A DNA stretch of 43,958 bases from assembly GCA_007695015.1 (NCBI GenBank), contig REEN01000027.1, forward strand, positions 68,994-112,951, in the 5' to 3' direction. Below, piece by piece: positions 4,234 to 26,366 of this stretch (position 1 is its first letter; every line of letters starts with the position of its first letter). A program made the translations under genes and the position numbers. The notes under the pieces were generated by a model that was given only the letters and a program-made list of their open reading frames with translations, made no database searches and was not told the DNA's origin. Origin of the DNA: Marinilabiliales bacterium. GTDB taxonomy: Bacteria > Bacteroidota > Bacteroidia > Bacteroidales > PUMT01.

Positions 4234-4277
4234 ATGGTTTTGGTTATGTTAATTGACCGGGGCGGATATCCTGGCCG

Positions 4278-4285: not shown

Positions 4286-4312
4286 CATTTTTTCTGATAC
4301 ACTAAATTGAAT

Positions 4313-4320: not shown

Positions 4321-4430
4321 TAAAACCAAACCGGATAATCATTTAAACATTTACCTGCGGTCCGTAAAAATAAGAATACACAATATCAGTTACATTTATA
4401 ACCAGTAAATCAACCTTAAATCCAAAAAAA

Positions 4431-5186: not shown

Positions 5187-5219
5187 TGCCAAACAGGCAT
5201 TGGTATCTTTTTGCCTGTT
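5185..5219 (+). terminator. Weak hairpin after the DUF1080 gene
   Basis: AATGCC (5185-5190) and GGCATT (5196-5201) can form a 6-bp stem with a 5-base loop, followed by ...ATCTTTTT. A competing 7-bp stem AACAGGC/GCCTGTT (5192-5198 with 5213-5219) overlaps it. Either could end transcription between the convergent genes, but both are short. Confidence 0.35.
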
Positions 5220-5260
5220 GAACTCAGTTTCCCGGAGCCGGGCGGGAGCTGGTGTTTCCT

Positions 5261-6817: not shown

Positions 6818-8035
6818 ATGAGATTATTCATTGCTTTTATTATTCTTTCATCAAACCTGCTCCATTCGCAGGTGAAGACCGGTATAGAGGTGCTGGAAGA
6901 AAATGGTTTTGAGCCCCTGCTGAACAAGAGAGTGGGACTCATAACGAACCCCACCGGGGTGGACAGCAGGCTCAGATCAACCGCAGATATACTTTTTAAC
7001 GCCCCGGAAGTGAACCTGGTGGCACTGTTTGGTCCTGAACACGGCATCAGGGGAGACTTTGCTGCAGGCGAGAAAGTGGAGACCGCAGCCGATGCCGTAA
7101 CCGGACTGCCTCTATTCAGCCTTTATGGAGCCACCCGAAAGCCAACGGCTACGATGCTCAAAGATATTGATATTCTTGTCTACGACATTCAGGATATAGG
7201 TTCAAGGTCGTATACCTACATAAGCACAATGGGACTTGCCATGGAAGCTGCCGCTGAGAGCGGCATCGGGTTTATGGTGCTGGACAGGCCCAACCCCCTT
7301 GGCGGAAATAAGTTCGAAGGACCGCTGGTCGAAGATGGCTTCATATCTTTTGTAAGCCAGTTCCCCGTCACCTATGTGCACGGCTTCACCACCGGTGAGC
7401 TTGCCCATTTCCTGAACGAAGAGGGGCTGCTTGAAAGCGGCCCTGTGAACCTCACAGTGATCAGGATGGAGGGATGGGATCGCGATATGCTTTTTGAGGA
7501 TACCGGACTTCCATGGGTGCCCACCTCCCCTCACATACCTCATATCCATTCGGCTTACTATTATCCCGTATCAGGCATTCTCGGCGAACTTTACGTGTAC
7601 AACATCGGAGTGGGCTATACCCTGCCGTTCCAGCTTGTCGGGGCAAACTGGATCGATGCCGGAAGGCTGGCAAACAGGCTCAACAGTCTGGCTCTGCCCG
7701 GTGTTATATTCAGGCCCGTCCATTTCAGGCCCTATTACAGTGTGATGAGCGGAACGATGGTAAGCGGGGTGCAGATCCATCTTACCGACGTGCGTAAGGC
7801 TGAGCTTTCGCTCATACAGTTCTGGATAATGCAGGAGATGAAGGATCTTAACCCGGACAAGGATCCTTTTGAGCTTTGCGACCCTGCCCGTCACGACATG
7901 TTCGACAAGGTGGTGGGCACCGACAAGGTGAGGACAACGTTTTCGGAACGGTTCAGGGTTCAGGATATTCTGGAGATCTGGACCCGGCAGGAGGCCGCTT
8001 TCGCCGAAAAGGCGGCAGAATATTTCCTTTACTGA
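6818..8035 (+). CDS. namZ: Exo-beta-N-acetylmuramidase, NamZ family (DUF1343)
   Basis: A 405-residue exported protein of the DUF1343 family. Members have been shown to remove non-reducing terminal MurNAc from peptidoglycan fragments. Residues 1-17 are a signal peptide (LLHS-Q). Family marks are RVGLITNPTGVD (38-49), LFGPEHGIRGD (70-80), YDIQDIGSRSYTYIST (122-137) and VLDRPNP near 155. The length is normal and no key segment is missing. It faces the end of the MurT-like permease gene, so it is convergent with the salvage operon rather than part of it. It would act in the periplasm, releasing MurNAc for the permease, MurK and MurQ encoded in the same island. The specific substrate (polymer versus disaccharide) cannot be told from sequence. 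Confidence 0.88.
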   Translation: MRLFIAFIILSSNLLHSQVKTGIEVLEENGFEPLLNKRVGLITNPTGVDSRLRSTADILFNAPEVNLVALFGPEHGIRGDFAAGEKVETAADAVTGLPLFSLYGATRKPTATMLKDIDILVYDIQDIGSRSYTYISTMGLAMEAAAESGIGFMVLDRPNPLGGNKFEGPLVEDGFISFVSQFPVTYVHGFTTGELAHFLNEEGLLESGPVNLTVIRMEGWDRDMLFEDTGLPWVPTSPHIPHIHSAYYYPVSGILGELYVYNIGVGYTLPFQLVGANWIDAGRLANRLNSLALPGVIFRPVHFRPYYSVMSGTMVSGVQIHLTDVRKAELSLIQFWIMQEMKDLNPDKDPFELCDPARHDMFDKVVGTDKVRTTFSERFRVQDILEIWTRQEAAFAEKAAEYFLY

Positions 8036-8116
8036 ACCCTGGCCGGGAACTTCAGCCATACGTGAAACGCCCATGACCTGAAGCTCGCAAAATACAATGA
8101 AACCCGCATCAGCTTG

Positions 8117-9979
8117 TCAGTCCCCCGCGCTGTCTTCCTCCTTCTTTTTGACTCCGAACTTCGGATCTATCTTCAGGTAGAAGATCATTATGAACCCGGG
8201 GATGGTACATATGACCACCCATATGAAGAAATTTACGTAACCCACGATCTCCTGAATCCATCCTGAGATCATTCCGGGCAGCATCATACCCAGGGCCATG
8301 AACCCGGTACAGAAGGCATAATGGGCAGTCTTGTGACTTCCTTCTGAAAAGTGTATCATAAACAGCATGTATGCAGTAAATCCAAAACCGTAACCAAACT
8401 GTTCAAATGCAACCCCGCCCGAAATGACCCACATACTCTGTGGCGAATAAACCGACAGCAGCACATACACGATATTGGGAACATTCATGGCGATGGCCAT
8501 TGGAAAGACCCAGTACTTAAGTCCCTTCCTGGAAGCAACAATACCGCCCAGTATGCCGCCCATCGTTAGTGCTGCAATTCCAATTGTGCCGTATATCAAA
8601 CCCACATCACCCGTACTTAGACCCAGTCCCCCCACCTCTCTCGGATCAAGCATGAAAGGTGAGGCAAGCTTCACTATCTGGGCCTCTCCAAGCCGGTACA
8701 GGAGCATGAATGCAAGGGCCGGACCGATATTCTCCTTCCTGAAAAAAGCGCTGAATGTCTTGATGAAACCTGCAAGCACGCTTATTCCCCTTTCATTCAC
8801 CGCTGGTTTGTCAGTTGCAGGGAACGGCAGGAAGAAGCGATGGTATACCATAAACACTACGAACAGAACAGCCAGGAAGAAAAAGGTCACCGTCCAGGCA
8901 AACGGGATGTTGCCGGAAAGCCCTTCAAAATGTGCCTCGGCAGGCCGGTCAAGTGCCGGGTCAAGCTGGATGGCCATCCATGCTGTCCGGTCCCAGTTAG
9001 CAGAAGTGAACACAAGTCTCTCGCCGATGACAAGCCCTATACTGGCGTCCCCCCTCTGCAGTCCGGTATTCAGCACCACCTCTTCACCGGGGCCGGGAGG
9101 AGATGACAATGAAACACCCACAAGGGCAATATTACCCTGCATTGCCTGAACTGACAGATCTATATCGTCTGTAACACCGAACCTTTCCCTGAGCCACATC
9201 CCGAGAGGCCCGGATACAGAACGGGCAAACCATGATACCGATGGCTCAATTTCAGGTTCAGGTTCCACAAATCCATTGAGTATATTCTGTTCCTCTGCAA
9301 AGGCAAGCATTTCCCGGGCCGTTTCACGATCTATACCGGCGGTGGAAAGCTCTATTTCTTCGGTGCCGGCAATGAAGTTCCGCCTCCCTTCAACCTGTTC
9401 ACCTGTAGTGGGGTACTTATGCACCCCCGCAGGAATATCAGGACCGGCAGTCACCGTGATACTGACCGGTTCAAGTCCGGTCCGCGTCTCGATAAAGCCT
9501 GCCAGAATAATCAGAAGTCCCTGACCGGTAATCATGGCAAACCTGTAAAATGTGCTTCTTATACCGACAAAATAGGCCTGCTCATGTTCCTTGAGCCCCA
9601 GCATGTAGAACCCGTCGGCAGCAATATCATGAGTGGCCGAGCTGAATGCCAGCAGCCAGAAAAATGCAAGTGTGGCCTGGAAAAAGCCCGGAACGGGTAT
9701 GGTAAAAGCCACACCCGCAAGTCCGGCACCCACCAGCAGTTGCATAAGCACGATCCACCACCTTTTGGTTTTAAGCAGGTCAACTACAGGGCTCCAGAAT
9801 GGTTTGATGACCCAGGGCAGGTAAAGCCAGCTTGTATAGAGGGCTATATCGGCATTGGAAATACCCAGACGTTTGTACATTATAACCGATACGGTCATTA
9901 CGACTACATAGGGAATACCCTGTGCAAAATAAAGTGAGGGCACCCATGCCCATGCTGAACGGTGACTGGCTTTTTTCAT
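8117..9979 (-). CDS. MFS permease, AmpG/MurT-like, with a ~195-residue inserted domain
   Basis: A 620-residue inner-membrane permease. The first five membrane segments (residues 1-165) and the rest (360-600) fit the AmpG-like branch of the major facilitator superfamily: YFAQGIPY (17-24), WVIKPFWSPVVD (56-67) and the HDIAADGFYM region (117-126). Between them a soluble block (about 165-360) interrupts the fold, far longer than the usual loop; AmpG proteins are otherwise about 400-490 residues. The related MurT of Tannerella forsythia imports MurNAc, and the neighbours (amidase, SpoIID-like, DUF4922, MurK, MurQ, NamZ) make muropeptide or MurNAc uptake the likely job. It is last in the minus-strand operon, 20 bases after the SpoIID-like gene. 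The gene symbol is withheld because MurT and AmpG cannot be separated by eye. Confidence 0.82.
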   Translation of the reverse strand: MKKASHRSAWAWVPSLYFAQGIPYVVVMTVSVIMYKRLGISNADIALYTSWLYLPWVIKPFWSPVVDLLKTKRWWIVLMQLLVGAGLAGVAFTIPVPGFFQATLAFFWLLAFSSATHDIAADGFYMLGLKEHEQAYFVGIRSTFYRFAMITGQGLLIILAGFIETRTGLEPVSITVTAGPDIPAGVHKYPTTGEQVEGRRNFIAGTEEIELSTAGIDRETAREMLAFAEEQNILNGFVEPEPEIEPSVSWFARSVSGPLGMWLRERFGVTDDIDLSVQAMQGNIALVGVSLSSPPGPGEEVVLNTGLQRGDASIGLVIGERLVFTSANWDRTAWMAIQLDPALDRPAEAHFEGLSGNIPFAWTVTFFFLAVLFVVFMVYHRFFLPFPATDKPAVNERGISVLAGFIKTFSAFFRKENIGPALAFMLLYRLGEAQIVKLASPFMLDPREVGGLGLSTGDVGLIYGTIGIAALTMGGILGGIVASRKGLKYWVFPMAIAMNVPNIVYVLLSVYSPQSMWVISGGVAFEQFGYGFGFTAYMLFMIHFSEGSHKTAHYAFCTGFMALGMMLPGMISGWIQEIVGYVNFFIWVVICTIPGFIMIFYLKIDPKFGVKKKEEDSAGD

Positions 9980-9999
9980 TTTTATTCCGTATTAATTTT

Positions 10000-11334
10000 T
10001 CAATATCTTTTTTCGAGCTCAGAGCCGGGAAAATAGTGTGTCAGTATGTCCCGGTACGAATAGCCACCCGAGCCCATCACGGCAGCACCAATCTGGCAGA
10101 GGCCCACACCGTGTCCCCAGCCGGCGCCCTTCAATGTAAAGGCCGACGGTACGCCTTCAACCTTCTCTCCCTCTTCAACTACAAAAGCCGAGCTGTAAAG
10201 GTGTGATGGAGAAAGGGCCTTCCGTATCTCCAGCTCCTTGCCTATAACAACCGAGCCGCCGGTTCCCCTGATCCTGAGCTTTAACAGCCTGCCCGACACA
10301 CCCCTCTCAACAGGCTCGAGAGCTATGATGTCGCCAAGTTCCAGGCCCACTTTCCTTTTCAGAAGCTCTTTTATCTCATTCTGTTCCAGGGTAACCGACC
10401 ATCTGAAAAAGTTGACAGTCTCCTGGTCATAATCATTCAGTACCTGGCTGAGGACATATGTACTCCTGGTATTGCAGAATGCTTCGGGACTACCAAGTAT
10501 CCACGCCTTTGCAGCTTCCTCGGTCGACAGGACGGTGTCGAACCCTGGCGGATCAACGGGGTTGTCTATGACCTTTGTCAGATAGGGATGCACCACCGGC
10601 TCCCACACATTTTCAAATTTCTCGCTTATGCCCCCGCAGCACTTGGAATATCTTGCATCGCATATTTTGCCTTCATAGGCAAGCACCATGCCTGAAGTCG
10701 AGTTTACCGCCTCCTCCACAGCGGGCGTTCCTGCCCTGGTTATACCCTGGTAACGCTGGCAGTGGTCGTCGGCACAGACATCAAAATTTTTATGATCCTC
10801 CCTGTCATACCACCGGATGATTTCCCCTTCCTTTTCGACAGAGGTTACATACTCACCTGTACCCTTCAGCCTGGCTTCCTTCTCCTTCTGCGCCAGCAGC
10901 CAGCTGCGCGATATCACCGCATGCGCCCTCAGCAATTCAGACGATGAGGTGGCGCTCATCTCCGACGAGATGACGCTGATCAGGTATTCTTCGAGGGGCA
11001 GGACATTGACGGCCGTTAGCAGTCCGTTCTCCCCGATAACCCGCAATCCTCCCCTGAACCGCTGGTCCTCCTTTCTCTCCCAGTGGAAATTGATCCCGAT
11101 GGTAACCTCTTTGAGGTCAAAACTGCAATCCTCGCAGTCAACCGGCTCGAGCTCAACGGGAAAAGAAGCAGCTACGGGGCTGCTGCCAATGGAAAAGCTC
11201 AGTTTCCCGTCCTCCAGCACGACGCTTCCCGGACCCTCAAACTCGACACCGCTCTCCAGGTGCCGGTACCGTCCGTTCAGATGGAAGACAATTCGTGGTG
11301 AAAACATAATTCCTACATTGATCTTTGGTTGCAT
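10000..11334 (-). CDS. SpoIID/LytB domain protein (putative lytic transglycosylase)
   Basis: A 444-residue SpoIID-domain protein. The core is clear: NVLPLEEYLISVISSEMS (~109-126), ELLRAHAVISRSWLLA (~132-147), VCADDHCQRYQG, YSKCCGGISE and the C-terminal GAGWGHGVGLCQIGA (~403-417). In spore formers SpoIID is a glycan-cleaving lytic transglycosylase acting on denuded strands. In Bacteroidota the gene recurs in MurNAc salvage loci. There is no recognisable signal peptide: the N-terminus MQPKINVGIMF leads straight into a beta strand. The protein therefore looks cytoplasmic or exported by an unusual route. It contains many cysteines (DCEDC, CADDHC, KCC), odd for a periplasmic enzyme. It sits between the DUF4922 gene and the permease gene in the minus-strand operon. 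Confidence 0.88.
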   Translation of the reverse strand: MQPKINVGIMFSPRIVFHLNGRYRHLESGVEFEGPGSVVLEDGKLSFSIGSSPVAASFPVELEPVDCEDCSFDLKEVTIGINFHWERKEDQRFRGGLRVIGENGLLTAVNVLPLEEYLISVISSEMSATSSSELLRAHAVISRSWLLAQKEKEARLKGTGEYVTSVEKEGEIIRWYDREDHKNFDVCADDHCQRYQGITRAGTPAVEEAVNSTSGMVLAYEGKICDARYSKCCGGISEKFENVWEPVVHPYLTKVIDNPVDPPGFDTVLSTEEAAKAWILGSPEAFCNTRSTYVLSQVLNDYDQETVNFFRWSVTLEQNEIKELLKRKVGLELGDIIALEPVERGVSGRLLKLRIRGTGGSVVIGKELEIRKALSPSHLYSSAFVVEEGEKVEGVPSAFTLKGAGWGHGVGLCQIGAAVMGSGGYSYRDILTHYFPGSELEKRY

Positions 11335-11418
11335 ATCGCTTATTTTTAGTTAATCCCTTTTTCCGGTAGCATTCTGGCAATCAAACGCGGCCAGACCGCA
11401 AAGAGCCTGAACAATTAT

Positions 11419-12369
11419 TTACCCCAGCCGTTCAGGCAGTTGTGCCCACGCAGCCTCCCCGAGGCTTACCTGGCTGAAAATATCACTGATCACAGCCTGG
11501 TCGATCTTTTCATAATCTTCCTGCCTGGGTGTTATCCATACCCCGCCGAAATCGACAGAGGCCGGACTGAGCAGTATCTGCTTTTCACCCTCCGCTTCGA
11601 ACTGCCATGGCCTGTGTCTCTCCCGGGGGAACACAACAACCCTCCATATCCCCCCGTAATAACCCGCCAGGATATTCAGCATAGGTTCATTCTCTCCGGG
11701 CTGCATATCCTGCAATATATCATATATTTTTGTAAACCAGCGATCAAGCTCTCCGGGTGAATCTCCCTCCATAACGAGGGTCTTCCTGTGACACCCCTCC
11801 AGGGCATCTATAACAACCGCACCCTCTTTTTTTATACGCTTCCGCGGAAGCGTACGCGCCTCCTTTTCTACCGGCATGAATCCCCTGATTCCCGCCTGGA
11901 AGTGGAAATGGTCGGGCGCGCTGGCACCGCAGCGCGGTCCGTTATAGAAGAGGGTGTAATCCTCAAGTGCCCGGGCAAGCGTGAGCATATCGACGAACCT
12001 GCCCCTGATGAGCTGGTCCTTATGACCGGTCAGCGCAATGGTAAGGTGGCGCCTGAATATCGGGAAAGGATTGACAAGCACCATGTAGGAGTCTCCGAAC
12101 ATTATCTTTTTCTGCTCCGGGGGCAGGTTGCCGGCACACAGGAAACACGGCCTTTCGCTGATGCTTTTTTTATCCACCCTGGCTGCAGATGAGCGCATCC
12201 TGGCAGGGTTGAACTGCACCCTTACAAGAGAGTTGCCTGGCATCGCAACATCCCTGATCAAAACCCGGTCAAGGTCATCATAGTTCTTTTTCGCCAGCGG
12301 CCACTGATTCAGCTGACACCTGAAAAAATCATCCATGCCGGTTATCCTGTCATTCCCGCTCTTCTCCAT
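11419..12369 (-). CDS. DUF4922 protein, HIT/GalT-like nucleotidyl-transfer fold
   Basis: A 316-residue cytoplasmic protein of the DUF4922 type. Two features suggest the HIT superfamily (GalT or Ap4A phosphorylase branch). CFLC (Cys75, Cys78) may be half of a metal site. The SAPDHFHFQ motif (150-158; His154, His156) resembles the catalytic H-x-H-x-Q of GalT-type enzymes, in which the first His of the pair carries the nucleotidyl intermediate. A VNPFPIFRRHLTIAL segment (99-113) is also typical of that fold. No enzymatic function is assigned to my knowledge. Its place in a MurNAc operon suggests transfer of a nucleotide to, or phosphorolysis of, a sugar phosphate from muropeptide turnover; this is inference. 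Gaps to neighbours are 131 bases (glycosyltransferase side) and 84 bases (SpoIID side). Confidence 0.8.
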   Translation of the reverse strand: MEKSGNDRITGMDDFFRCQLNQWPLAKKNYDDLDRVLIRDVAMPGNSLVRVQFNPARMRSSAARVDKKSISERPCFLCAGNLPPEQKKIMFGDSYMVLVNPFPIFRRHLTIALTGHKDQLIRGRFVDMLTLARALEDYTLFYNGPRCGASAPDHFHFQAGIRGFMPVEKEARTLPRKRIKKEGAVVIDALEGCHRKTLVMEGDSPGELDRWFTKIYDILQDMQPGENEPMLNILAGYYGGIWRVVVFPRERHRPWQFEAEGEKQILLSPASVDFGGVWITPRQEDYEKIDQAVISDIFSQVSLGEAAWAQLPERLG

Positions 12370-12424
12370 AAATCGGTTTTCGTTAATTACACCCGTTACG
12401 CCGGGAGCAATTATTTATATGTCA

Positions 12425-12444
12425 TTCGCTGTTGTTCGCTGTTG
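12425..12444. repeat. Two tandem copies of a 10-bp unit, TTCGCTGTTG
   Basis: An exact 2 x 10 bp tandem repeat between the glycosyltransferase and DUF4922 genes, next to a strong hairpin. It may arise from slippage; no function is evident. Confidence 0.5.
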
Positions 12445-12449
12445 TTACA

Positions 12450-12484
12450 CCGGCGGGTAGTCTTTGCCACCAGGCTCCCGCCGG
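12450..12484 (-). other. Strong stem-loop in the glycosyltransferase / DUF4922 gap
   Basis: CCGGCGGG (12450-12457) pairs perfectly with CCCGCCGG (12477-12484). After a one-base bulge the stem can continue for five more pairs (one G-U), leaving an 8-base loop. No U-run follows on the minus strand, so it is not a standard intrinsic terminator. It could be a processing or stability element that sets different levels for upstream and downstream genes of the operon. Confidence 0.45.
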
Positions 12485-12500
12485 AGAAATAGTCATGTCA

Positions 12501-13982
12501 TTAGCTGGCGGACTCATTCCTGTTCAGGGCGATCCTTGCGAGCAGCTCAATGGTCCTTATCCTGTCCTTGTAGGTGTTATGGGCATTCAGCTTCTGTACG
12601 TCGAGCGATGCATCAGTATTCTCTTCCCACCTCCGGCACAGGTACAACGGGTCATAGATCCTGCCTATCTGGTAATGCCTCGAAATTGCCAGTCCAAGGG
12701 CATAATCCTCCCCGTAACTCACATTCGGGAGCCTTATCTCCCTCAGCACCGGGGTGAAGAAAGCCCTGGGAGCCCCAAGCCCGTTAATCCTCAAGGCATT
12801 GTTCCTCCCGTTGCCGGGTGTCCACTCCCGGTGGTCAATAAGTCCGGGAGGTATCTCCTCAAGTCCGAAGTTGACCATCCTGTAACTGCCCACTATCATG
12901 ACACACTGCTGGGCATAGAACTCATCAACGATCCTCTGAACAACATTTTCGTCAATATACAGGTCATCGCTGTCAAGCTGAATCGCGAACCTTCCGCACT
13001 GCTCATGGAAGGCCCCTTCGTTCCAGCAGCCTCCTATTCCAAGATCATTCCTTACCGGCACCACATGTATCAAACGGTTGTCAGAAGCTGCAAACTCTTT
13101 TAGCAGCTCAGTCGTGCCGTCTGACGAATGGTTGTCCACCACTATCAGGTTGAAAGGGAAGCCGGTTTTCTGGTTAAGGACCGATTTGACAGCGTCGGCA
13201 ATGGTTTTAACCCTGTTCCTGACAGGTATGATTACCGATGCCTCAACGGGAAAGGAGCCCTTTGCAAGGTCTGCATCCTTGAATTCCGGCTTCAGCCATC
13301 CTCCAATGGATTTGAGATGCCCGGTGCATGCCCGCTCCATTTCGATCTGCATCTGCCTGTTGCGCGGATCGACGTAGTCGAACATCTTCTGTCCCGACTT
13401 CCGGGTGTCGGTCTCCATCTCGGTATAAAGGTACTCGGGTATCCTGAAAAGGCGCTGCTTCTCTGAAACCCTCAGCCGCAGGTAGTAAATGCCTGCGAAC
13501 TGGTATTCGTCGGGGATTTTTGCAACAGCCCTTTTGAGTGCCGCGGTGCGGTAGAGCATGACCGACCCGAAGTTGAAATCATCACGAAGGCTGCCCTGCT
13601 GGTAATCGATAACCGGGCATGGCCTTACCTCACCCTCCTTCACCTCGAAATAGTCAGAGTACACCATTCCTGCACCCGTGTCATCGGCTACCTGAATCAT
13701 GCGACGCAGGGCATGCTCTCCCAGCTTAAGCGGAAGGGATTTTGTATATATGAGCACATAGTCGGTATCGGCCAGGGAGGCCATCTTCTTAACAGCTGCC
13801 GTTGAAAGCATTGAAAGGATATCAAGCATTTCGGCCGATTCTGGAAGAGAGGACTGCACATCATCGGCTTTTCCGAATATAAACGACCGCTTTGTCACGC
13901 CTGATAGTTCAAGTTGCCTTAGTGTTTCAAGCAGGTTGCCGGTATGACCGGCCTGGAGGAAACATGTAATCCGTTGTTCCAT
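12501..13982 (-). CDS. Two-domain family 2 glycosyltransferase
   Basis: A 493-residue protein when started at the ATG at 13982 (MEQRITCFLQAG). Longer starts (14024, 14117) are open; the longest would overlap the upstream gene and adds a low-complexity leader, so the shorter one is preferred. Residues 1-225 look like a degenerate GT-A unit without a clear DXD. Residues 247-490 are a standard GT2 domain: ASVIIPVRNR at its start, IVVDNHSSDGTTELL, and the DSDD metal motif at 337-340. No membrane segment is seen, so it is cytoplasmic. GT2 enzymes transfer sugars from nucleotide donors; neither donor nor acceptor can be read from the sequence. A biosynthetic enzyme inside a catabolic MurNAc operon, next to a putative nucleotidyl-transfer protein, is unexpected. 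Confidence 0.82.
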   Translation of the reverse strand: MEQRITCFLQAGHTGNLLETLRQLELSGVTKRSFIFGKADDVQSSLPESAEMLDILSMLSTAAVKKMASLADTDYVLIYTKSLPLKLGEHALRRMIQVADDTGAGMVYSDYFEVKEGEVRPCPVIDYQQGSLRDDFNFGSVMLYRTAALKRAVAKIPDEYQFAGIYYLRLRVSEKQRLFRIPEYLYTEMETDTRKSGQKMFDYVDPRNRQMQIEMERACTGHLKSIGGWLKPEFKDADLAKGSFPVEASVIIPVRNRVKTIADAVKSVLNQKTGFPFNLIVVDNHSSDGTTELLKEFAASDNRLIHVVPVRNDLGIGGCWNEGAFHEQCGRFAIQLDSDDLYIDENVVQRIVDEFYAQQCVMIVGSYRMVNFGLEEIPPGLIDHREWTPGNGRNNALRINGLGAPRAFFTPVLREIRLPNVSYGEDYALGLAISRHYQIGRIYDPLYLCRRWEENTDASLDVQKLNAHNTYKDRIRTIELLARIALNRNESAS

Positions 13983-14055
13983 GGTCTTAAAGTTTTTTAT
14001 GTTTGGTTTTGGTTTCACTTGCATTATCAAATTCTCAAAATAAAGTCCGCTACCT

Positions 14056-17000
14056 TCAAAGATCCCGGGAAACGGGGATGTCCGTCCGGGAATTCGCATT
14101 ATCAGCCCCCATACCAACCCCGCCCTTAAGGAACCGCATTACAGCATCCATCATATGAAGCTTCTGCTCATCGCAGATGATGGACTCAAAAGGGAAGCCG
14201 AATGCCGCCACCCTCCGGTCGCCGTACTTCAGTACTGCCGCACTTGTTTTTGTAGCCGAGTACCTGTAGAGTCGCATACTCTTCTCACCGGCAGGTTCAA
14301 TTGCATCAGGGGCTTCAACAGTATAGATATCAGGGTCATACCCGGCGTTGAAGCTAATCTCCCCGGGAAATCCATAAGGGGTGCGTCCTGTCAGGTAAAC
14401 AGCGCCGCTGTTGCATGCATGGTTGGTGCGCCACGTGTAGCCCAGCACATCCCGCGCAAAATTTACAGCCAGTGTATCATTGCTCTCTATCATGTCGGTT
14501 CCGATATAGGCGCCTGTAACCATTATCCCCGTGCCATGGTCTGCAAACCTCCTCACCTCATCCATCATGCCGGGAGTGAAGACCCGGAAAGACACCAGTT
14601 CAGGATCATTCCACCCTTTAACGCCGCGCTGCTCAGCGAAGATCAGTATGAGCGCCGCATAATCGGCCGGTTCATACAAACCCTGCTCAAAAGCCTCCCT
14701 GCCGGCTGAAATGAAGGTATACCCTGCCTCCCTGAGCACCCTGCCGTAGAGCGCCGGGTAATCAAAACTGTTGCCGGGTATTACCCTGCCCTCCATATCG
14801 GCATAGCTGGCGCCCCAGCCAGGGGAATCATCATCCAGCCAGTCGCTCGATCTCCTGAAATCATACTGCGCGCCGGTATGGCTGAAATCATACCTGTGTC
14901 CTACCCCCGCATCATCCCACTGAGCCAGTCCCCCGAGCTCTCCCTCATCAAATACTGCCGGTCCTGAAACACGCGTAAAGCCGTTCACAACCAGCACGGG
15001 CTTCACCTCATCTGCTCCTTCCTGAGCAGACCCTGTCCGCTCCCGTTCACCGGGCAGCATAACCGAAAGTATCTCTCCGGGCAGGCTCTCTCCGCCGCTG
15101 TTAACGGCTGTCACCCTGAAACCATAGATCGTTCCGCTCTCCGGAAGGTCAATATCCATGAATGTCTCCGTAGCCCTTCTTCCGTTATCGAACCCGCCAT
15201 TCTCTCTCCGCGTATGGACAATATAGCCTTCAGCCACGGCGGTGGGCTCAAGCGGGTCCTCCTGTTCCCTCCAGCCGAGCCTGATGGCAGAGCCACCCAA
15301 ATAGCGTATATACATACCTTCGGGCGGAAGCGGCTGAACCACCGGTTCCCTTCCCTGCTCCCATGCCAGGTACCTGAGCATCCCCTTGTATATTGACCGG
15401 CTTACCAGGAACCTGAACCGCGGATCCAGTCCGTACCTCATGTCGGCCAGGTTCTGGTGCGACAGCAGCTCAAGAAGGAGTGCCGGGGCATGAGGCCTCC
15501 ATGCCTCCGAGTACTGCCTGTCCCATAACCCCCTCCTGGTCCACCTGCTGTCAGCCTGCAGCCTTATATCCTCCACTATAGACGTCTGTACGATATCTGA
15601 AAGGTCACGTGAGGCCATCCGGGAGCGTCCGTCATGGAACACCCCGCCTGTACGCTGGCTGCTGTATATTGCCAGCGTTCCTATGACCGAATCGGATGGT
15701 GTCACGCCGGCATCGGTATGAAAGGCAAGCACCATGTCAACGGGGATAAGGGGACTCCCGGAATCGGGTTCACCGGTCATGGTAAGCGGCGCACCCATCA
15801 GGTAGTTAACCCACTCCCCCCGTGACATGAAGTCGTCGTTGTAGTCGTTGCGGCCCCGGTTAAGGCTGTACACCGATGAGTCCGGCATTCCCGCATACTG
15901 GAGCCAGTAACGCGCCCCTTCCATATAGCGGGGCCTGCCGCTCAGCTTCCATTCCTGCTGCAGGGCCGGGTCAGCAGAATCTCTTTTCTCCGCCGGGGTG
16001 CCGTCATCGTGCAATGACCATAGCGACTGCACAAATTCACCGGCCGCCCTCCTGGCAACATTGCCCGTCCCGCCCCCGAAACGCACGGCATCAGTTGTAA
16101 TGTATCCGCCGGCCCCGGGCGGGGCGTAAATGGTCACGCTGCCTGCCTTCTTATCGGTTCCCTCTTTGAACATAAATGTTCCCAGGTATATCCAGGTGCC
16201 GTAGCCCATGCCCTGATCCGCCACAAAACGTGTTATTCCTCCTGTATGGTTTACGGCATATATCACATCCTGCACATTTTCCGGTGCCTTCGCCCATGAG
16301 ACGTAGACAGCATATTCTCCGCAATCCGGTATAGCGGGTATATAGGTTACAGACGCACCGGCACCGCCTTCCGTGCGCAACCTGAGATGCGTCCCTTTCC
16401 TGAAAGGGTTGTCCCCTTCAAACAGGGTGTCGGACAGCGCAAAGCCCCCCGGTACCGTATCCCATCCGTTTCTTTCACCGCCGGTTATTACAATTTCAGA
16501 AGAGCCGTGTGAACCGTCATTATCAACCACCACCTCGTGATGCATGATATCCCTCTCCCTGGGCAGCAGCACTGTGGCACCGGCATTTTCAAGCATCGGC
16601 AACAGGTATGCACGTATATAGGCAAAAGGATACAGGTCCTCTATGGTACCGTAAAGCCGGGCCCTCTGCCACTCCCACCGGTCGCGGGAAGCTTCATAAT
16701 AATAACCGTGGCTTGGCCAGAGCGCAATGTGCGCCCCCGACAGTCCCCCGCCATAATACTCCCTGTCCTGCCTGCGCACAAGCTGCCGGGGCGGGGCTTC
16801 CGTTCCGGCCACCCCTTTGCCGGGCCCGCGAAGATCTCCGGTATATCCGGAACCTGCAGCCCCTGGAGATCGGTCTGCCAAGGCTACAGCCATCCTTGAA
16901 GAATCCTGGTCGATGTATGGCTCCCTGTAGTAATTTGGTATGTATTCCTCAAGCCTCCTTCCGGCCGACCAGAGATGTATTTCATAGTTCCTGAACCGGA

Positions 17001-17400
17001 ATCCGAGCCGGTTGAGCAGACCTGCACGCAAGGCCTCAAGCCATGGATAGCGGATGGGAATGTGGGTAACCGGACTGCTCAGCCAGACGAATACATTGTT
17101 ATCTGCTATATCAACAGCCACACTGTCAACCCCCATCTGCCCCAGGTGATGCCAGCCCGTGAAAAGATCTGAGACATCCTCAAGGCGGTTCATGGCCCTC
17201 CCGGAAAGGCGCAGTTCCCGGGGGGACTGTGAGGTTGCCGGGATGGCAGTAACAAGCAACAGGAATACTGTCAGCAGCCACCTTGCAGTTATTCGTACCG
17301 GCACACTGCCCGTATAATTGCTTCTGCCATGATGTCCTTCCGGCAGTGATACCGGTCCGGTTAACGGGTGAAAAGCCAGGACTGGGGAAAGCGAGCTCAT
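14056..17400 (-). CDS. Large exported N-acetylmuramoyl-L-alanine amidase-like protein with golvesin-like, FnIII and C-terminal domains
   Basis: Database names for relatives often read xanthan lyase, but the sequence shows a split Amidase_3-like catalytic domain. Numbered from the ATG at 17400, a PSHG motif has His231 and TIEDL has Glu254, followed by LPMLENAGATVLLPRERD (the G-x-x-V-x-x-TR-x-x-D equivalent). After an insert, AFHTDAG has His561 and PALLLELLSHQN has Glu644. The insert (about 300-445) resembles the golvesin/Xly carbohydrate-binding-like domain. An FnIII domain follows (about 690-785), then a C-terminal domain (about 805-1090) of Rossmann or GATase-like look. A signal peptide (RWLLTVFLLLVTAIPATSQ) lies at residues 40-58. 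A GTG at 17304 would put it right at the N-terminus and may be the true start; ATG at 17463 is also open. It heads the minus-strand salvage operon and would strip peptides from muropeptides in the periplasm. Confidence 0.78.
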   Translation of the reverse strand: MSSLSPVLAFHPLTGPVSLPEGHHGRSNYTGSVPVRITARWLLTVFLLLVTAIPATSQSPRELRLSGRAMNRLEDVSDLFTGWHHLGQMGVDSVAVDIADNNVFVWLSSPVTHIPIRYPWLEALRAGLLNRLGFRFRNYEIHLWSAGRRLEEYIPNYYREPYIDQDSSRMAVALADRSPGAAGSGYTGDLRGPGKGVAGTEAPPRQLVRRQDREYYGGGLSGAHIALWPSHGYYYEASRDRWEWQRARLYGTIEDLYPFAYIRAYLLPMLENAGATVLLPRERDIMHHEVVVDNDGSHGSSEIVITGGERNGWDTVPGGFALSDTLFEGDNPFRKGTHLRLRTEGGAGASVTYIPAIPDCGEYAVYVSWAKAPENVQDVIYAVNHTGGITRFVADQGMGYGTWIYLGTFMFKEGTDKKAGSVTIYAPPGAGGYITTDAVRFGGGTGNVARRAAGEFVQSLWSLHDDGTPAEKRDSADPALQQEWKLSGRPRYMEGARYWLQYAGMPDSSVYSLNRGRNDYNDDFMSRGEWVNYLMGAPLTMTGEPDSGSPLIPVDMVLAFHTDAGVTPSDSVIGTLAIYSSQRTGGVFHDGRSRMASRDLSDIVQTSIVEDIRLQADSRWTRRGLWDRQYSEAWRPHAPALLLELLSHQNLADMRYGLDPRFRFLVSRSIYKGMLRYLAWEQGREPVVQPLPPEGMYIRYLGGSAIRLGWREQEDPLEPTAVAEGYIVHTRRENGGFDNGRRATETFMDIDLPESGTIYGFRVTAVNSGGESLPGEILSVMLPGERERTGSAQEGADEVKPVLVVNGFTRVSGPAVFDEGELGGLAQWDDAGVGHRYDFSHTGAQYDFRRSSDWLDDDSPGWGASYADMEGRVIPGNSFDYPALYGRVLREAGYTFISAGREAFEQGLYEPADYAALILIFAEQRGVKGWNDPELVSFRVFTPGMMDEVRRFADHGTGIMVTGAYIGTDMIESNDTLAVNFARDVLGYTWRTNHACNSGAVYLTGRTPYGFPGEISFNAGYDPDIYTVEAPDAIEPAGEKSMRLYRYSATKTSAAVLKYGDRRVAAFGFPFESIICDEQKLHMMDAVMRFLKGGVGMGADNANSRTDIPVSRDL

Positions 17401-17484
17401 ATACAGGCGTTTATTGATTACCGGTTCAATGTGATAGGTTTCACTGTGCGCTAAAATAACCATTTTTTGATGAGTAAAAAATGT

Positions 17485-17492
17485 CAAAAGTA
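17485..17492 (-). promoter_or_regulatory. Candidate promoter of the minus-strand salvage operon, -7 box
   Basis: On the minus strand TACTTTTG matches TAnnTTTG exactly. Transcription would begin near 17478, ahead of the possible starts of the amidase-like gene (17463, 17400, 17304) but downstream of any longer reading. A -33 box is not obvious; its position is taken up by the inverted repeat at 17507-17520. Confidence 0.5.
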
Positions 17493-17506
17493 TGTTGGCG
17501 GACAGT

Positions 17507-17520
17507 TGCCGGTTCCGGCA
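17507..17520. promoter_or_regulatory. Perfect inverted repeat midway between divergent -7 boxes; candidate operator
   Basis: TGCCGG-TT-CCGGCA is a perfect 6+2+6 dyad centred at 17513.5. The inner edges of the two opposing -7 boxes (17492 and 17534) have their midpoint at 17513, so the dyad covers the -33 position of both promoters. This is the geometry of an operator that would control both the MurK-MurQ arm and the amidase-to-permease arm. No candidate regulator gene lies in the island. Confidence 0.45.
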
Positions 17521-17533
17521 TCCTCCTTTTTAT

Positions 17534-17541
17534 TATATTTG
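17534..17541 (+). promoter_or_regulatory. Candidate murK-murQ promoter, -7 box
   Basis: TATATTTG matches TAnnTTTG exactly. Transcription would start near 17548, leaving an ~80-base leader before the ATG at 17630. It also rules out the longer upstream reading of murK as the real start. Confidence 0.5.
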
Positions 17542-17629
17542 CAGAAAACCGGTGCCGGCTTCCCGGCTTAAAAGTCCCCCCTCAATTCGCCCCCGGAGGC
17601 AAAACCGGCAATACCAAAAACAACTGAAC

Positions 17630-18475
17630 ATGATTCTGGTAGCAGACAGCGGATCGACAAAAACAACATGGTGCATAACCGTCGAAACAGATACCGAAGA
17701 GATGTGTTGCACAACGGCAGGGATCAACCCCTTCCTGCAAAGTCCGGGTGAGATATCACAAACCCTTGAAGCTGAATTCACACTGCAGCGTGGACCCTAC
17801 AGTGCGATATTCTTTTACGGTGCGGGATGTGCCAATCCGCAAAAGAACGAAGAGGTCAGAAGGCCTCTCGACCAGTTCTTTCAGGCAGACGCCATCCATG
17901 TCGACTCGGACCTTATGGCGGCTGCACGCTCACTTTGCGGCAGCCGGCCGGGTATAGCGGCCATAATGGGCACCGGTTCCAATTCATGTTACTATGACGG
18001 CAGCAGAATAGCAAGGCACGTATCTCCGCTGGGCTATATACTTGGTGATGAAGGCAGCGGCACGGTACTTGGCAGGAAACTGCTGTCTGATGTACTTAAA
18101 AACCAGCTCCCGGAACAGGTGCGCGAGGCTTTCTACAAAAAATACAGGCTCGGGCCGGCAGAGATTCTGGAGAATGTCTACCGGAAGCCTTTCCCGAACA
18201 GGTTCATGGCCCGGTTCACCCATTTCCTGGCAGAGCACAAAGAAGACCCGGCAGTGTACCGGCTCATCATCGAAAGTTTTACTGAGTTTTTCAACCGCAA
18301 CATCAGGCAGTACCCCGAGGCAGAAACCATGGCGGTCAACGTTACGGGCAGCATAGGATGGCACTTCAGGGATATCCTGGCCCGGGCGGCAGGTGAAGCC
18401 GGTTTTTCAACCGGCATTATCACGAGGGAGCCGATGGAGGGCCTGCTGGATTACCATAAAGGAAACAAAACCTGA
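17630..18475 (+). CDS. murK: MurNAc kinase, BadF/BadG ATPase family (MurK)
   Basis: A 281-residue cytoplasmic sugar kinase of the ASKHA fold. The phosphate-1 loop is ADSGSTKTTW (5-14), a likely catalytic Asp94 stands in HVDSDLMAAAR (90-100), phosphate-2 is AIMGTGSNS (111-119), and GYILGDEGSGTVLGRKLL (135-152) is the family hallmark. Characterised relatives next to murQ in Bacteroidota phosphorylate MurNAc (and sometimes GlcNAc) at O-6. ATG 17630 is chosen over an upstream in-frame start because the conserved strand begins there and a promoter box lies inside the longer version. It is followed by murQ after 10 bases, so the two are surely cotranscribed; the pair takes imported MurNAc to GlcNAc-6-phosphate. 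Confidence 0.88.
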   Translation: MILVADSGSTKTTWCITVETDTEEMCCTTAGINPFLQSPGEISQTLEAEFTLQRGPYSAIFFYGAGCANPQKNEEVRRPLDQFFQADAIHVDSDLMAAARSLCGSRPGIAAIMGTGSNSCYYDGSRIARHVSPLGYILGDEGSGTVLGRKLLSDVLKNQLPEQVREAFYKKYRLGPAEILENVYRKPFPNRFMARFTHFLAEHKEDPAVYRLIIESFTEFFNRNIRQYPEAETMAVNVTGSIGWHFRDILARAAGEAGFSTGIITREPMEGLLDYHKGNKT

Positions 18476-18485
18476 TACAGTTATT

Positions 18486-19340
18486 ATGACGCAACGTATG
18501 GACGAAAGAGAGGACGAGGATCTCAGAAAAATCATTACCGAACAGCCCTCCAGGTACCAGAACCTGGAAAAGATGTCGGTCCGGGAACTTGTCGAGGGTA
18601 TCAACCGGGAGGATGGACTGGTGCATAAAGCTGTCAGAAAAGCTCTTCCCCAGATAGAGAGGCTTATCGGCGAGATACTGCCCAGGATGGAACAGGGAGG
18701 CAGGGTATTCTATATAGGATCGGGAACCAGCGGCAGGCTGGGAGTGCTTGATGCCTCAGAGCTGCCTCCTACATTCGGGGTGCCCGGCAACATGGTTATA
18801 GGGCTTATCTCGGGTGGCGACGTTGCCCTGCGAAAAGCAGTGGAAAAGGCAGAGGATGATCCCGAACAGGCATGGGAAGACATGAAAAGGTTCGAGATAA
18901 ACCGGCACGACACGGTTATTGGTATTGCCGCTTCGGGTACCACTCCCTATGTGGTTGGTGGACTTCAACGGGCAAGGCATGAAGGACTTCTTACCGGTTG
19001 CATAACATGCAATCCCGGTTCTCCCGTAACGGAGGCGGCTGAAATAGCTGTTGAGGCTGTCGTGGGTCCTGAATTCCTTACCGGCAGCACCAGAATGAAA
19101 GCAGGTACAGCCCAGAAGATGATACTGAATATGATAACCACCTCACTCATGATCAAGCTTGGTAAGGTTAAAGGGAACAGGATGATCAACATGCAGCTTA
19201 CAAACAACAAGCTGGTCCGGCGCGGCACAAGGATGATCATGGAAGAGATCAATCTGGATGCCGACCAGGCCAGGGATTTGCTTCTGAAGCACGGAAGCGT
19301 TAGGCTGGCAATAGAAGCATGGAACAGGGAAAACGGTTGA
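18486..19340 (+). CDS. murQ: N-acetylmuramic acid 6-phosphate etherase
   Basis: Cleaves the D-lactyl ether of MurNAc-6-phosphate to GlcNAc-6-phosphate and D-lactate. The 284-residue protein starts at the ATG at 18486 (MTQRMDEREDEDL); an earlier in-frame ATG inside murK was rejected. The single SIS domain shows FYIGSGTSGRLGVLDASELPPTFG (75-98), with Glu92 at the position of the catalytic glutamate in the DASExPPT motif. LISGGD (108-112), GIAASGTTPYV and the signature GSTRMKAGTAQKMILNM follow. All expected segments are present and the length is typical for the family. It ends 15 bases from the convergent DAHP synthase gene. No NagA or NagB is present, so the product must enter central metabolism elsewhere. 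Confidence 0.96.
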   Translation: MTQRMDEREDEDLRKIITEQPSRYQNLEKMSVRELVEGINREDGLVHKAVRKALPQIERLIGEILPRMEQGGRVFYIGSGTSGRLGVLDASELPPTFGVPGNMVIGLISGGDVALRKAVEKAEDDPEQAWEDMKRFEINRHDTVIGIAASGTTPYVVGGLQRARHEGLLTGCITCNPGSPVTEAAEIAVEAVVGPEFLTGSTRMKAGTAQKMILNMITTSLMIKLGKVKGNRMINMQLTNNKLVRRGTRMIMEEINLDADQARDLLLKHGSVRLAIEAWNRENG

Positions 19341-23893: not shown

Positions 23894-24000
23894 AAGGCAG
23901 TGGTTTCTTAATACCGCATGGATGCGGACTTTCAGCGTAAAAAAGAACCGGGAAAAATGATTTTAACACAGGCTGCCAATGATTTTTAAACAATATCAAG

Positions 24001-24008
24001 TAATTTTG
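24001..24008 (+). promoter_or_regulatory. Candidate promoter of the NlpC/P60-epimerase operon, -7 box
   Basis: TAATTTTG matches TAnnTTTG exactly and is about 30 bases before the ATG at 24039. The -33 box is weak. It lies inside the longer open reading that starts at 23979, which argues against that start. Confidence 0.45.
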
Positions 24009-24038
24009 ATCCTGCAGCATCCGGAAAACAATACTGTC

Positions 24039-25226
24039 ATGAGCAAAAGAACTCTCTTTTTACTGGCATCCCTGGCGGCAACAATGCTGGTTTTAAGTTC
24101 AGCATGTAAAAAAGAGCCCGGCATTGATGAAATAATTGAAAGTATAAGGCAGGTCCATGCACCCGATGCACGCGAAAACATCTTTGAAATAAAAGCTGAA
24201 TGGCAGGGCGGGATGAAGGTGAACATTTCAGGAGAGGTTGACAACGAAGCATTAAAGCGCGCCATCATAGATTCGCTGTCCGCTGCCGGATTTGAAATAT
24301 CAGAACAAATAGACGTTCTGCCTGTTAACGTTCCCTGGACGTGGGCCCTGGTCAACATCAGCGTTGCAAACATCAGGGCCACCCCCTCCCACCGGTCCGA
24401 GCTTGTAACACAGGCAATCCTGGGAAACCCGGTCAGGGTATTAAAGGAGCAGGGCTCATGGGTTCTCGTGCAGACCCCCGACCGGTATCTTGGATGGTGC
24501 AGCAAATCGTCACTGGAAGGCATGGATGTTGATGAACTGTATAAATGGAAAAGTTCTCCCCGGGTAATCTATTCTGAAATCCACGGTTTTATCAACAGTC
24601 TGCATGGCCAAACGGTTTCAGATATTACAGCAGGTGCAATCCTTGTAAAAGAAGGCAGCGAAGGAGATCTTCTGAAAGTAAGACTGCCTGACGGCCGGAA
24701 CGGAACAGTAGCAAGGCATATGGCATATTGTCTTGAAGAATGGAGCAGAGAAGCCATTCCTTCAGCTGACAGGATAGCAGAAACAGCAATGGCTATGCAT
24801 GGCTTTCCCTACCTTTGGGGGGGAACCTCACCTAAAGGGATGGACTGCAGCGGATATACCAGGATCGTATGGTTCATGAACGGAATGGTCATTGCAAGAG
24901 ATGCATCTCTCCAGGCACGGCATGGTAACCCGGTAGACCTGGCCGGCCGGCAATATCTTGAAACCGGCGACCTGCTTTTTTTCCGGACAAACCCCGGCGA
25001 CGCTGACGGATCCCCTGTAACACACGTAGCGATATATTTGGGAGATTCTGAGTATATTCATGCAGCAGGGATGGTGACTGTCAATAGTCTTGACAGTTTA
25101 AGGGACAACTACAGCGCCTACAGGGCATCCACCCTGCAAAGCGCCAGGAGGACACCCTCCGGTTCGTCAGAGCCAGGCCTGTTACCCGTTAAGGATCATC
25201 CATGGTATTTTAATCAAACCCGATAA
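24039..25226 (+). CDS. NlpC/P60 lipoprotein with SH3b domains (gamma-D-glutamyl-diamino acid endopeptidase-like)
   Basis: A 395-residue predicted lipoprotein. The type II signal ends at LSSAC (Cys23). Residues 24-95 are an N-terminal domain. Two SH3b-like domains follow (about 105-160, with NIRATPSHRSELVTQAILG, and 180-235). The NlpC/P60 domain (245-385) has Cys270 in KGMDCSGY, His329 in THVAIYLG and a third polar residue, His341, in YIHAAG. The SH3b-SH3b-NlpC layout matches YkfC-type enzymes that cleave the gamma-D-Glu-diamino acid bond of murein peptides with a free L-Ala end. The next gene, only 3 bases away, is a dipeptide epimerase, the classical partner for the L-Ala-D-Glu this enzyme releases. 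The start at 24039 gives a clean lipoprotein signal. Confidence 0.9.
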   Translation: MSKRTLFLLASLAATMLVLSSACKKEPGIDEIIESIRQVHAPDARENIFEIKAEWQGGMKVNISGEVDNEALKRAIIDSLSAAGFEISEQIDVLPVNVPWTWALVNISVANIRATPSHRSELVTQAILGNPVRVLKEQGSWVLVQTPDRYLGWCSKSSLEGMDVDELYKWKSSPRVIYSEIHGFINSLHGQTVSDITAGAILVKEGSEGDLLKVRLPDGRNGTVARHMAYCLEEWSREAIPSADRIAETAMAMHGFPYLWGGTSPKGMDCSGYTRIVWFMNGMVIARDASLQARHGNPVDLAGRQYLETGDLLFFRTNPGDADGSPVTHVAIYLGDSEYIHAAGMVTVNSLDSLRDNYSAYRASTLQSARRTPSGSSEPGLLPVKDHPWYFNQTR

Positions 25227-25229: not shown

Positions 25230-26366
25230 ATGGTATCCAGAAGAAACTTCATCAAAAAGGCAGGCTTGCTGGCAGGTTCAACACTGGTAACATCCCGGGT
25301 GGCCGGGGCAGGCCTGATTGGTAACCGTTCGCCAGTCAAAGAGTCAAAAAAGCTGACTTTCAGCTTCAGGCCCTATGAGGTCAGGCTCAAACACGTATTT
25401 ACCCTTGCAGCCGGCAGCCGGACCACAACACCTGTCGTTTTTACCGAAATTGGTTGTGACGGCCATATTGGTTACGGTGAGGCATCCATGCCCCCCTACC
25501 TCGGAGAGAGTCACGAGACGGTCCTTAACTTCCTGAATAAAGTGGACCTGTCACAGTTCAATGACCCATTCCGGATTGAAGAGATCAACAGTTATATAGA
25601 ATCTATCGCCCCGGGCAATTACGCGGCAAAGGCCTCGGTTGACATAGCCCTTCACGACCTGACGGGCAAGTTGCTTGGTGAGCCCTGGTATCGCCTGTGG
25701 GGTTACAGTCCCGACAAAACACCTTTTACATCTTATACAATAGGGATCGACACTCCCGAAGTGGTAAGGGAAAAGACAAGGGAAGCATCGGAATTCAGGA
25801 TACTTAAGGTGAAACTGGGTCTTGACACCGACAAGGAGATGATCACGACCATACGCTCGGTAACCGACACTCCGATCTGTGTCGATGTAAATCAGGGATG
25901 GAAAGACCGTGAGTTTGCCCTTGAGATGATCCACTGGCTCAATGAGCGTAACGTGGTGTTCGTTGAGCAGCCGATGCCTGTAGAGGCAATTGACGACATG
26001 GCCTGGCTCACAGAAAGGAGTCCCCTTCCTACAATCGCAGATGAAGCTTTACAGGGTCCTTCAGATATAGGAAAGGTTTACGGCGCCTATGACGGCATCA
26101 ACATCAAGCTGATGAAGTGCGGCGGCATGAGGGCGGCCCGCCAGATGGTCAGCACCGCAAGGTCGCTGGGAATGAAGGTTATGATTGGGTGCATGATTGA
26201 GAGTTCGTGTGCCGTTACCGCTGCGGCTCAACTGTCGCCGGCGGTGGACTGGGCTGATCTTGACGGCAACCTGCTCATCAATAATGACGTTTTTGAAGGT
26301 CTTAAAATAATTGACGGCAGAGTAACGTTACCTGACAGGCCCGGAATTGGAGTTGTACCTCTGTAA
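25230..26366 (+). CDS. Dipeptide epimerase (L-Ala-D/L-Glu epimerase-like), Tat-exported
   Basis: A 378-residue enolase-superfamily enzyme of the muconate-lactonizing branch. Catalytic residues typical of L-Ala-D/L-Glu epimerases are visible: the K-x-K pair Lys193/Lys195 (LKVKLG), metal ligands Asp219 (CVDVNQG), Glu246 (VEQPMP) and Asp271 (IADEA), and Lys293 (INIKLMKCGG). The N-terminus MVSRRNFIKKAGLLAG is a clear twin-arginine signal, so a folded, metal-loaded enzyme would be sent to the periplasm or an envelope face. The characterised bacterial versions are cytoplasmic, so the location is notable. It overlaps in function with the NlpC/P60 lipoprotein three bases upstream: together they would release and epimerise L-Ala-D-Glu outside the cytoplasm. 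Related dipeptide specificities are possible. Confidence 0.88.
   Translation: MVSRRNFIKKAGLLAGSTLVTSRVAGAGLIGNRSPVKESKKLTFSFRPYEVRLKHVFTLAAGSRTTTPVVFTEIGCDGHIGYGEASMPPYLGESHETVLNFLNKVDLSQFNDPFRIEEINSYIESIAPGNYAAKASVDIALHDLTGKLLGEPWYRLWGYSPDKTPFTSYTIGIDTPEVVREKTREASEFRILKVKLGLDTDKEMITTIRSVTDTPICVDVNQGWKDREFALEMIHWLNERNVVFVEQPMPVEAIDDMAWLTERSPLPTIADEALQGPSDIGKVYGAYDGINIKLMKCGGMRAARQMVSTARSLGMKVMIGCMIESSCAVTAAAQLSPAVDWADLDGNLLINNDVFEGLKIIDGRVTLPDRPGIGVVPL

Follow-up and report, generated by a model that had tools for sequence, protein, structure and literature searches.

Peptidoglycan sugar recycling of the E. coli type runs through AmpG, NagZ, AnmK and MurQ. A different arrangement is described in T. 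forsythia, where Tanf_08345 to Tanf_08385 form one transcript with the gene order xanthan lyase, gtf, gtf, lytB, ampG, ybbC, murT, murK, murQ (PMC5388701). The lytB gene is annotated there as an amidase enhancer precursor, and the excerpted text of that source assigns no function to lytB or to either gtf gene. T. forsythia AmpG imports GlcNAc-anhMurNAc and GlcNAc-MurNAc, and MurNAc is degraded by MurK and MurQ (PMC7670621, PMC5790795, PMC10465942). In the relevant section of PMC7670621, no AnmK is predicted in T. forsythia, yet GlcNAc-anhMurNAc serves as a MurNAc source, and the step after import of this disaccharide is said to be one that "remains to be explored". A single enzyme, the GH3 GlcNAc phosphorylase Nag3, performs phosphorolysis of GlcNAc-anhydroMurNAc (PMC8950772).

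The window is the whole stretch of DNA that was analysed, 43,958 nucleotides. A scan of its open reading frames (ORFs) with domain models confirms eight salvage-cluster genes between positions 6818 and 19340, the same eight that the original prediction had listed. They are given here with two further genes that lie downstream.

6818..8035, plus strand: NamZ-like exo-beta-N-acetylmuramidase, apparently secreted (NamZ_N 275 bits, NamZ_C 129 bits)
8117..9979, minus strand: AmpG-like MFS muropeptide permease, 620 aa (MFS_1 and BT1 over cut-off)
10000..11334, minus strand: SpoIID/LytB-domain protein without signal peptide (TIGR02669, 178.9 bits against a cut-off of 83.3)
11419..12369, minus strand: DUF4922 protein, Ap4A-phosphorylase/GalT-like, motif DHFHFQ (PF16269, 203.5 bits against a cut-off of 23.6)
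12501..13982, minus strand: two-domain family 2 glycosyltransferase, GT2 (Glycos_transf_2, PF00535, 77.4 bits against 23.3)
14056..17487, minus strand: large amidase-like protein, probably exported, start uncertain (Golvesin_C, fn3, weak Amidase_3)
17630..18475, plus strand: MurK-like MurNAc/GlcNAc kinase (solved relatives 8oqw and 8ow9)
18486..19340, plus strand: MurQ, MurNAc-6-phosphate etherase (TIGR00274, 313.4 bits against a cut-off of 302, a score obtained with the longer ORF 18393-19340)
23979..25226, plus strand: NlpC/P60 endopeptidase with SH3 domain
25230..26366, plus strand: enolase-superfamily racemase resembling L-Ala-D/L-Glu epimerase or DgcA, below cut-offs

The start positions of the GT, MurK and MurQ were refined against relatives. 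On the minus strand the order is amidase-like gene, GT2, DUF4922, SpoIID and AmpG-like gene, with gaps of 73, 131, 84 and 20 bp. MurK and MurQ, spaced by 10 bp, are on the plus strand and diverge from that arm, and NamZ on the plus strand faces the AmpG-like gene on the minus strand, so the description as two divergent arms plus namZ is correct. The GT, DUF4922, SpoIID and AmpG genes stay together in 5 of 5 relatives found by a scan of genome contigs, hence the cluster in the window is not a chance arrangement. The window belongs to a Bacteroidales-like genome from a metagenome; its closest named relative is entered as 'Bacteroidales bacterium' (L002), with a DUF4922 protein 88% identical to that of the window. 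Rfam and tRNA scans of the window gave no matches.

The window matches the T. forsythia operon gene by gene in the same order except for murT (partial text of PMC5388701), and differs in three respects: murK-murQ runs divergently, namZ lies on the opposite strand, and murT is absent from the cluster. The claim that the island contains more than the known pathway is therefore half new, as the T. forsythia operon has the same genes in the same order. The operon itself was known before; the additions made here are the co-inherited and fused trio of GT2, DUF4922 and SpoIID described below, and the absence of a signal peptide from this SpoIID. By its position, the second T. forsythia gtf would be the DUF4922 gene.

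The identities of the known-pathway members vary in firmness. NamZ has both its N- and C-terminal domain models above the curated cut-off and a solved relative in 4k05 (E = 2.7e-153). MurK takes its putative identity from a close relation to solved T. forsythia kinases (8oqw, E = 3.2e-79; 8ow9, 'putative novel MurNAc kinase', E = 1e-78), and its preference for MurNAc or GlcNAc is likewise putative. The permease had been called MurT/AmpG-like, and only the second half of that name holds. It has the MFS_1 and BT1 matches, and the sodium:solute symporter family of MurT (PF00474) was found in none of the 20 window ORFs scanned between 303 and 28083. The AmpG model TIGR00901 reaches 161.8 bits against a cut-off of 350, in two stretches around an insert of about 195 aa that length comparison places near residues 165-362; being below cut-off, the permease is named AmpG-like only. 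Its import of GlcNAc-(anhydro)MurNAc is predicted by analogy with the T. forsythia protein. The amidase-like gene is present as stated, with a weak amidase assignment: Amidase_3 (PF01520) scores 20.6 bits, under its cut-off of 27, and the clear domain is Golvesin_C at 61.4 bits. Its positional counterpart in T. forsythia is the gene annotated xanthan lyase (partial text of PMC5388701). The downstream NlpC/P60 endopeptidase and racemase are possibly a peptide arm of the same salvage.

The main point of interest is the three genes to which the T. forsythia source assigns no role. DUF4922 occurs in 38 of the 148 genomes sampled from the order to which the window belongs. The GT profile, at a limit of our choosing (E ≤ 1e-60), finds the identical 38 genomes and no others, the weakest of them at E = 2.5e-128. 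A long-match type of SpoIID, defined post hoc by a match span of 327-414 nt as against at most 288 nt for the rest, is found in the same 38 genomes plus one (G233), such that the 110 genomes lacking DUF4922 have the GT in none and the long SpoIID in 1. A second sample, drawn from the phylum, has DUF4922 matches in 24 of 148 genomes, of which 22 were kept and two weak partial matches (G027, G136) were excluded from the trio counts; GT and long SpoIID are both present in all 22, and neither is present in any of the 126 others. With both samples combined, the trio is found in 59 of 295 distinct genomes.

To this pattern are added in-frame fusions of trio members at seven loci in the order. GT is fused to DUF4922 in L054, L056 and L057, DUF4922 is fused to SpoIID in L052, L055 and L058, and all three are in one frame in L053, a protein of 1005 aa that ends at the contig end. 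Fusions in every adjacent combination are good evidence that the three proteins act together. An ffh tree built from 80 of the 148 order genomes requires 12 or more changes in trio presence, which argues against a single inheritance event, though only a few of its branches have good support. The tree holds 35 of the 38 trio genomes (G196, G263 and G269 had no full ffh match and were left out), 15 of the 16 genomes having neither trio nor AnmK (G188, with a partial match, was left out) and 30 of the 94 genomes having AnmK only. GT2, DUF4922 and the signal-less SpoIID very probably form one module, judging from these sequence comparisons. The proposal that the three genes constitute an added branch is thus well supported by co-inheritance and fusion, and it is backed also by the linkage to salvage genes.

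That linkage was counted as a distance of 10 kb or less to AmpG, MurK, MurQ, NamZ or the amidase-like gene. In the order, 34 of 38 trio genomes have a salvage gene within this distance of any trio member (DUF4922 in 28, GT in 30, SpoIID in 32). The partners nearby are AmpG in 33 genomes, MurK in 22, NamZ in 16, MurQ in 14 and the amidase-like gene in 12, and GT and DUF4922 are fused or within 1.5 kb of each other in 29. The original prediction would have lost its footing if the three genes drifted freely among unrelated neighbors. Within the order there is no such drift; outside it, salvage genes lie this close (10 kb or less) to a trio member in only 6 of 21 trio genomes, while the GT-DUF4922 pair is retained in 18 of 21. 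Trio and salvage genes are strongly linked within the order and mostly unlinked outside it, with co-inheritance kept in both. MurK was considered as a marker of the trio and dropped, having little discrimination: matches at E ≤ 1e-40 occur in 113 of 148 genomes (35 of 38 trio genomes versus 78 of 110 others), and these probably include GlcNAc kinases.

The loss of linkage outside the order raises the reading that the trio assembles or trims a separate cytoplasmic glycan or glycoconjugate, tied to salvage by shared regulation or by Bacteroidales ancestry. It fits the 15 of 21 trio genomes outside the order that have no salvage gene nearby, and the setting of SpoIID there, which often adjoins a GT4 gene, BatA and HflX. 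It fits also the GT itself, which resembles an ordinary GT2 with chondroitin synthase as its nearest solved relative, and the former description of the T. forsythia operon as glycosylation-related (partial text of PMC5388701). Against it, trio members that have become separated still adjoin salvage genes: a detached SpoIID is next to AmpG in L111, L113 and L117, MurQ and SpoIID are adjacent in L107 and L114, and a detached GT is near MurK in L122, L125 and L127, of seven such GT loci. The presence of AmpG near the trio in 33 of the 38 order genomes that have it is a further argument against. We consider a glycan of the trio's own rather unlikely, and lean toward the trio acting on imported muropeptide sugars. 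AmpG is the closest and most frequent partner of the trio, which makes imported disaccharides the most natural substrates.

Known SpoIID relatives cleave MurNAc-GlcNAc by forming a 1,6-anhydro ring. The trio protein aligns with solved SpoIID lytic transglycosylases (4rwr, 5i1t, 5txu) at E = 9.6e-18, and it has in common with them the fold by sequence, the catalytic Glu and metal-type Cys and His residues; Glu125 is invariant in 61 of 61 sequences, as are Cys187, His191, Cys192 and Cys413. The sporulation equivalog model TIGR02870 gives 125 bits, below its cut-off of 234.75. Unlike the lytic transglycosylases, the trio protein has no signal peptide or membrane anchor, it is joined to DUF4922 in four loci, in one of them together with GT, and its host is, as far as known, not a spore former. 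A hydropathy scan, a crude stand-in for a signal-peptide predictor, shows residues 1-60 to be free of hydrophobic stretches in 60 of 61 SpoIID ORFs, which start near a conserved VGI-type strand; the sole exception, from the genome of the window, is a secreted paralogue (L120). The same scan finds a hydrophobic N-terminus in 21 of 24 NamZ and 10 of 15 amidase-like controls, so the test works but misses some. The missing hydrophobic N-terminus and the fusion to signal-less enzymes indicate that the trio-type SpoIID is likely cytoplasmic. Full-text literature searches for SpoIID with NamZ returned nothing, and for SpoIID with Bacteroides and peptidoglycan recycling returned only work on Chlamydia.

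DUF4922 has no meaningful match among PDB sequences, and Ap4A_phos_N (PF19327) aligns at 20.1 bits, below its cut-off of 23.1. The predicted model, made from six sequences (pLDDT 83.7, pTM 0.86), comes closest to Apa2, the Ap4A phosphorylase of yeast, with Z = 18.9 and an rmsd of 3.4 over 263 aligned residues, followed by a DUF4931 protein at Z = 9.9, uridylyltransferase 6k5z at 9.2 and ADP-glucose phosphorylase at 8.9; GalT structures are at 7.6-8.2, with human GalT at 8.2. H154 and H156 of the H-x-H motif are invariant in 55 of 55 sequences; the Gln is kept in 54 of these and a C-x-x-C pair in all 55. By its modeled fold and the H-x-H motif, shared with Apa2, ADP-glucose phosphorylase and GalT, DUF4922 is placed in the Ap4A phosphorylase/GalT superfamily. 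A fold of this type makes a nucleotidyl-sugar reaction possible in either direction. The full-text literature search for DUF4922 found only plant GDP-galactose phosphorylase work.

The GT has its catalytic DSDD in the C-terminal half, and the motifs DSDD, ED and RRW are invariant in 50 of 50 homologues. No Pfam family matches the N-terminal half, which lacks a DSDD at the equivalent position. The two halves seem weakly similar, as hhalign scores one against the other at E = 2.6e-4 with a probability of 42%, a match that is lost with a shorter C-terminal piece. The predicted GT model has a mean pLDDT of 48.3.

One direction of the DUF4922 reaction was that of the original prediction, an anabolic branch re-using MurNAc sugars in activated form. 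DUF4922 would then be a GalT-type nucleotidyltransferase, for example converting UDP-GlcNAc and MurNAc-1-phosphate to UDP-MurNAc and GlcNAc-1-phosphate, with the GT using the product. The GalT structural matches and the H-x-H-x-Q type motif are in keeping with this, and T. forsythia must build UDP-MurNAc from salvaged MurNAc (partial texts of PMC7670621 and PMC5790795). That step in T. forsythia, however, is assigned to AmgK and MurU in the relevant section of PMC7670621. The nearest DUF4922 fold by far is Apa2, which is a phosphorylase, and the anabolic branch leaves the fused SpoIID without a role. We therefore regard the anabolic branch as unlikely.

The other direction gives the scheme that we put forward tentatively, as a plausible reading with the chances somewhat against it: the trio would be a cytoplasmic module working stepwise on the AmpG-imported disaccharides GlcNAc-anhydroMurNAc and GlcNAc-MurNAc, ahead of MurK and MurQ in the pathway. 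Outside the inner membrane, the amidase-like protein and NamZ would strip and trim the glycan and AmpG would import the disaccharide, both by comparison with T. forsythia. SpoIID may then open the anhydro ring by running the reaction of its relatives in the reverse, hydrolytic sense, a step that we hold doubtful. Less likely still is the third step, in which the GT would act in reverse, GlcNAc-MurNAc and NDP giving NDP-GlcNAc and MurNAc, and DUF4922 would phosphorolyse NDP-GlcNAc to GlcNAc-1-phosphate and NDP; GT reversal and DUF4922 phosphorolysis would sum to net phosphorolysis of the disaccharide. Counting against this step, a GT that draws its sugar from a beta-glycoside in the reverse direction works against an energy gradient. 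The last step would be the known conversion of MurNAc to GlcNAc-6-phosphate by MurK and MurQ. The full combination, SpoIID as opener of the anhydro ring together with GT2 and DUF4922 as a split disaccharide phosphorylase for which the nucleotide is a catalyst, is a long shot. Its net reaction would resemble that of Nag3, likewise a disaccharide phosphorolysis, except that Nag3 is one GH3 protein giving beta-GlcNAc-1-phosphate and the trio would be two unrelated proteins giving the alpha form (partial text of PMC8950772).

A simpler reading is that SpoIID alone opens anhydroMurNAc in place of AnmK, and that GT and DUF4922 have a separate job. If the trio replaces AnmK, a genome would be expected to have one or the other but not both. 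Within the order, 5 of 38 trio genomes have AnmK versus 94 of 110 others (Fisher p = 8e-16, uncorrected for relatedness), which suggests that AnmK may there have been replaced by the trio; the prediction of no AnmK in T. forsythia (relevant section of PMC7670621) points the same way. The phylum sample has 9 of 22 versus 95 of 126, and trio and AnmK are together in 13 of the 59 trio genomes. The window's own genome also has an AnmK gene, for 550 aa with low-complexity inserts (L119:9445-11097), and in Bacteroides ihuae, a control, AnmK is present along with DUF4922 and SpoIID. On the ffh tree most trio genomes lie in one large clade that holds also genomes with neither, and the AnmK contrast follows that clade, with only 2 and 4 independent pairs on supported branches. 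Replacement of AnmK was accordingly not retained as the main claim, being weaker in the phylum sample and at odds with the window genome, and was kept as a rival; as the fusions link all three trio proteins and not SpoIID alone, we judge the plain replacement very unlikely.

In the order, a NagZ-like GH3 (E ≤ 1e-40) occurs in 28 of the 38 trio genomes and in 99 of the remaining 110; no protein in the 148 genomes exceeds the cut-off of the curated NagZ model. With a NagZ-like GH3 in 28 of 38, most trio genomes would not need a second way of splitting the disaccharide. Loss of NagZ was weighed as support for phosphorolysis and set aside as too weak, the GH3 missing from 10 of 38 versus 11 of 110 (p = 0.03).

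The trio systems share AmpG import and the MurQ end step with recycling of the E. coli type, and differ from it by the addition of MurK and three cytoplasmic proteins, with AnmK absent in 33 of the 38 order genomes that have the trio. The split phosphorylase, if true, would be a recycling route needing neither NagZ nor AnmK, and would put a lytic-transglycosylase fold to work in the cytoplasm with its reaction reversed. The literature searched has no instance of this fold in a cytoplasmic protein joined to a nucleotide-sugar enzyme and a GT, as the trio SpoIID would be, and DUF4922 would for the first time have a working hypothesis for its role in bacteria. For T. forsythia, the three co-inherited proteins are candidates for the step that follows import of GlcNAc-anhMurNAc.

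The interval between the gene for SpoIID and that for the AmpG-like permease holds a polysaccharide deacetylase gene in the close relatives L002 (the nearest named relative, at 11771-12622), L003 and L071; the deacetylase gene is missing in the window, where SpoIID and AmpG are separated by a gap of 20 bp. The permease itself carries an insert.

8117-9979, minus strand, AmpG-like permease, insert of about 195 aa

The 43 AmpG-labelled ORFs near the trio of GT, DUF4922 and SpoIID form two length groups, one of 597-633 aa (16 of 43) and one of 425-541 aa (27 of 43).

MurK, NamZ and AmpG are repeatedly adjoined by a NagX-like transmembrane acetyltransferase (neighbour cluster c12), found at L060:17512-18660 and at 8 other loci, and an SSF symporter (cluster c11), which Pfam places in the MurT family, is likewise recurrent. 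At locus L132, a single ORF of 554 aa (4130-5794) is matched by both the MurK and the MurQ profile, and is an apparent kinase-etherase fusion. The AnmK of the window's own genome (L119:9445-11097) is 550 aa long and contains inserts of low complexity that resemble repeats and in which Pro, Asp, Ala and Thr are abundant.

Outside the order, at L043 and L092-L105, the gene next after the trio-type SpoIID often encodes a GT4 glycosyltransferase, and BatA/VWA and HflX genes come after that. The GT-DUF4922 pair is present as a second, broken copy in G047:C140 (loci L030 and L031), with DUF4922 split over two separate ORFs and the GT frame interrupted by a stop codon.

Near the island, the window also encodes the following pair.

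23979-26366, NlpC/P60 endopeptidase and enolase-superfamily racemase, the racemase starting 3 bp after the endopeptidase

The racemase is similar to L-Ala-D/L-Glu epimerase, and the two genes possibly constitute a peptide-salvage pair.
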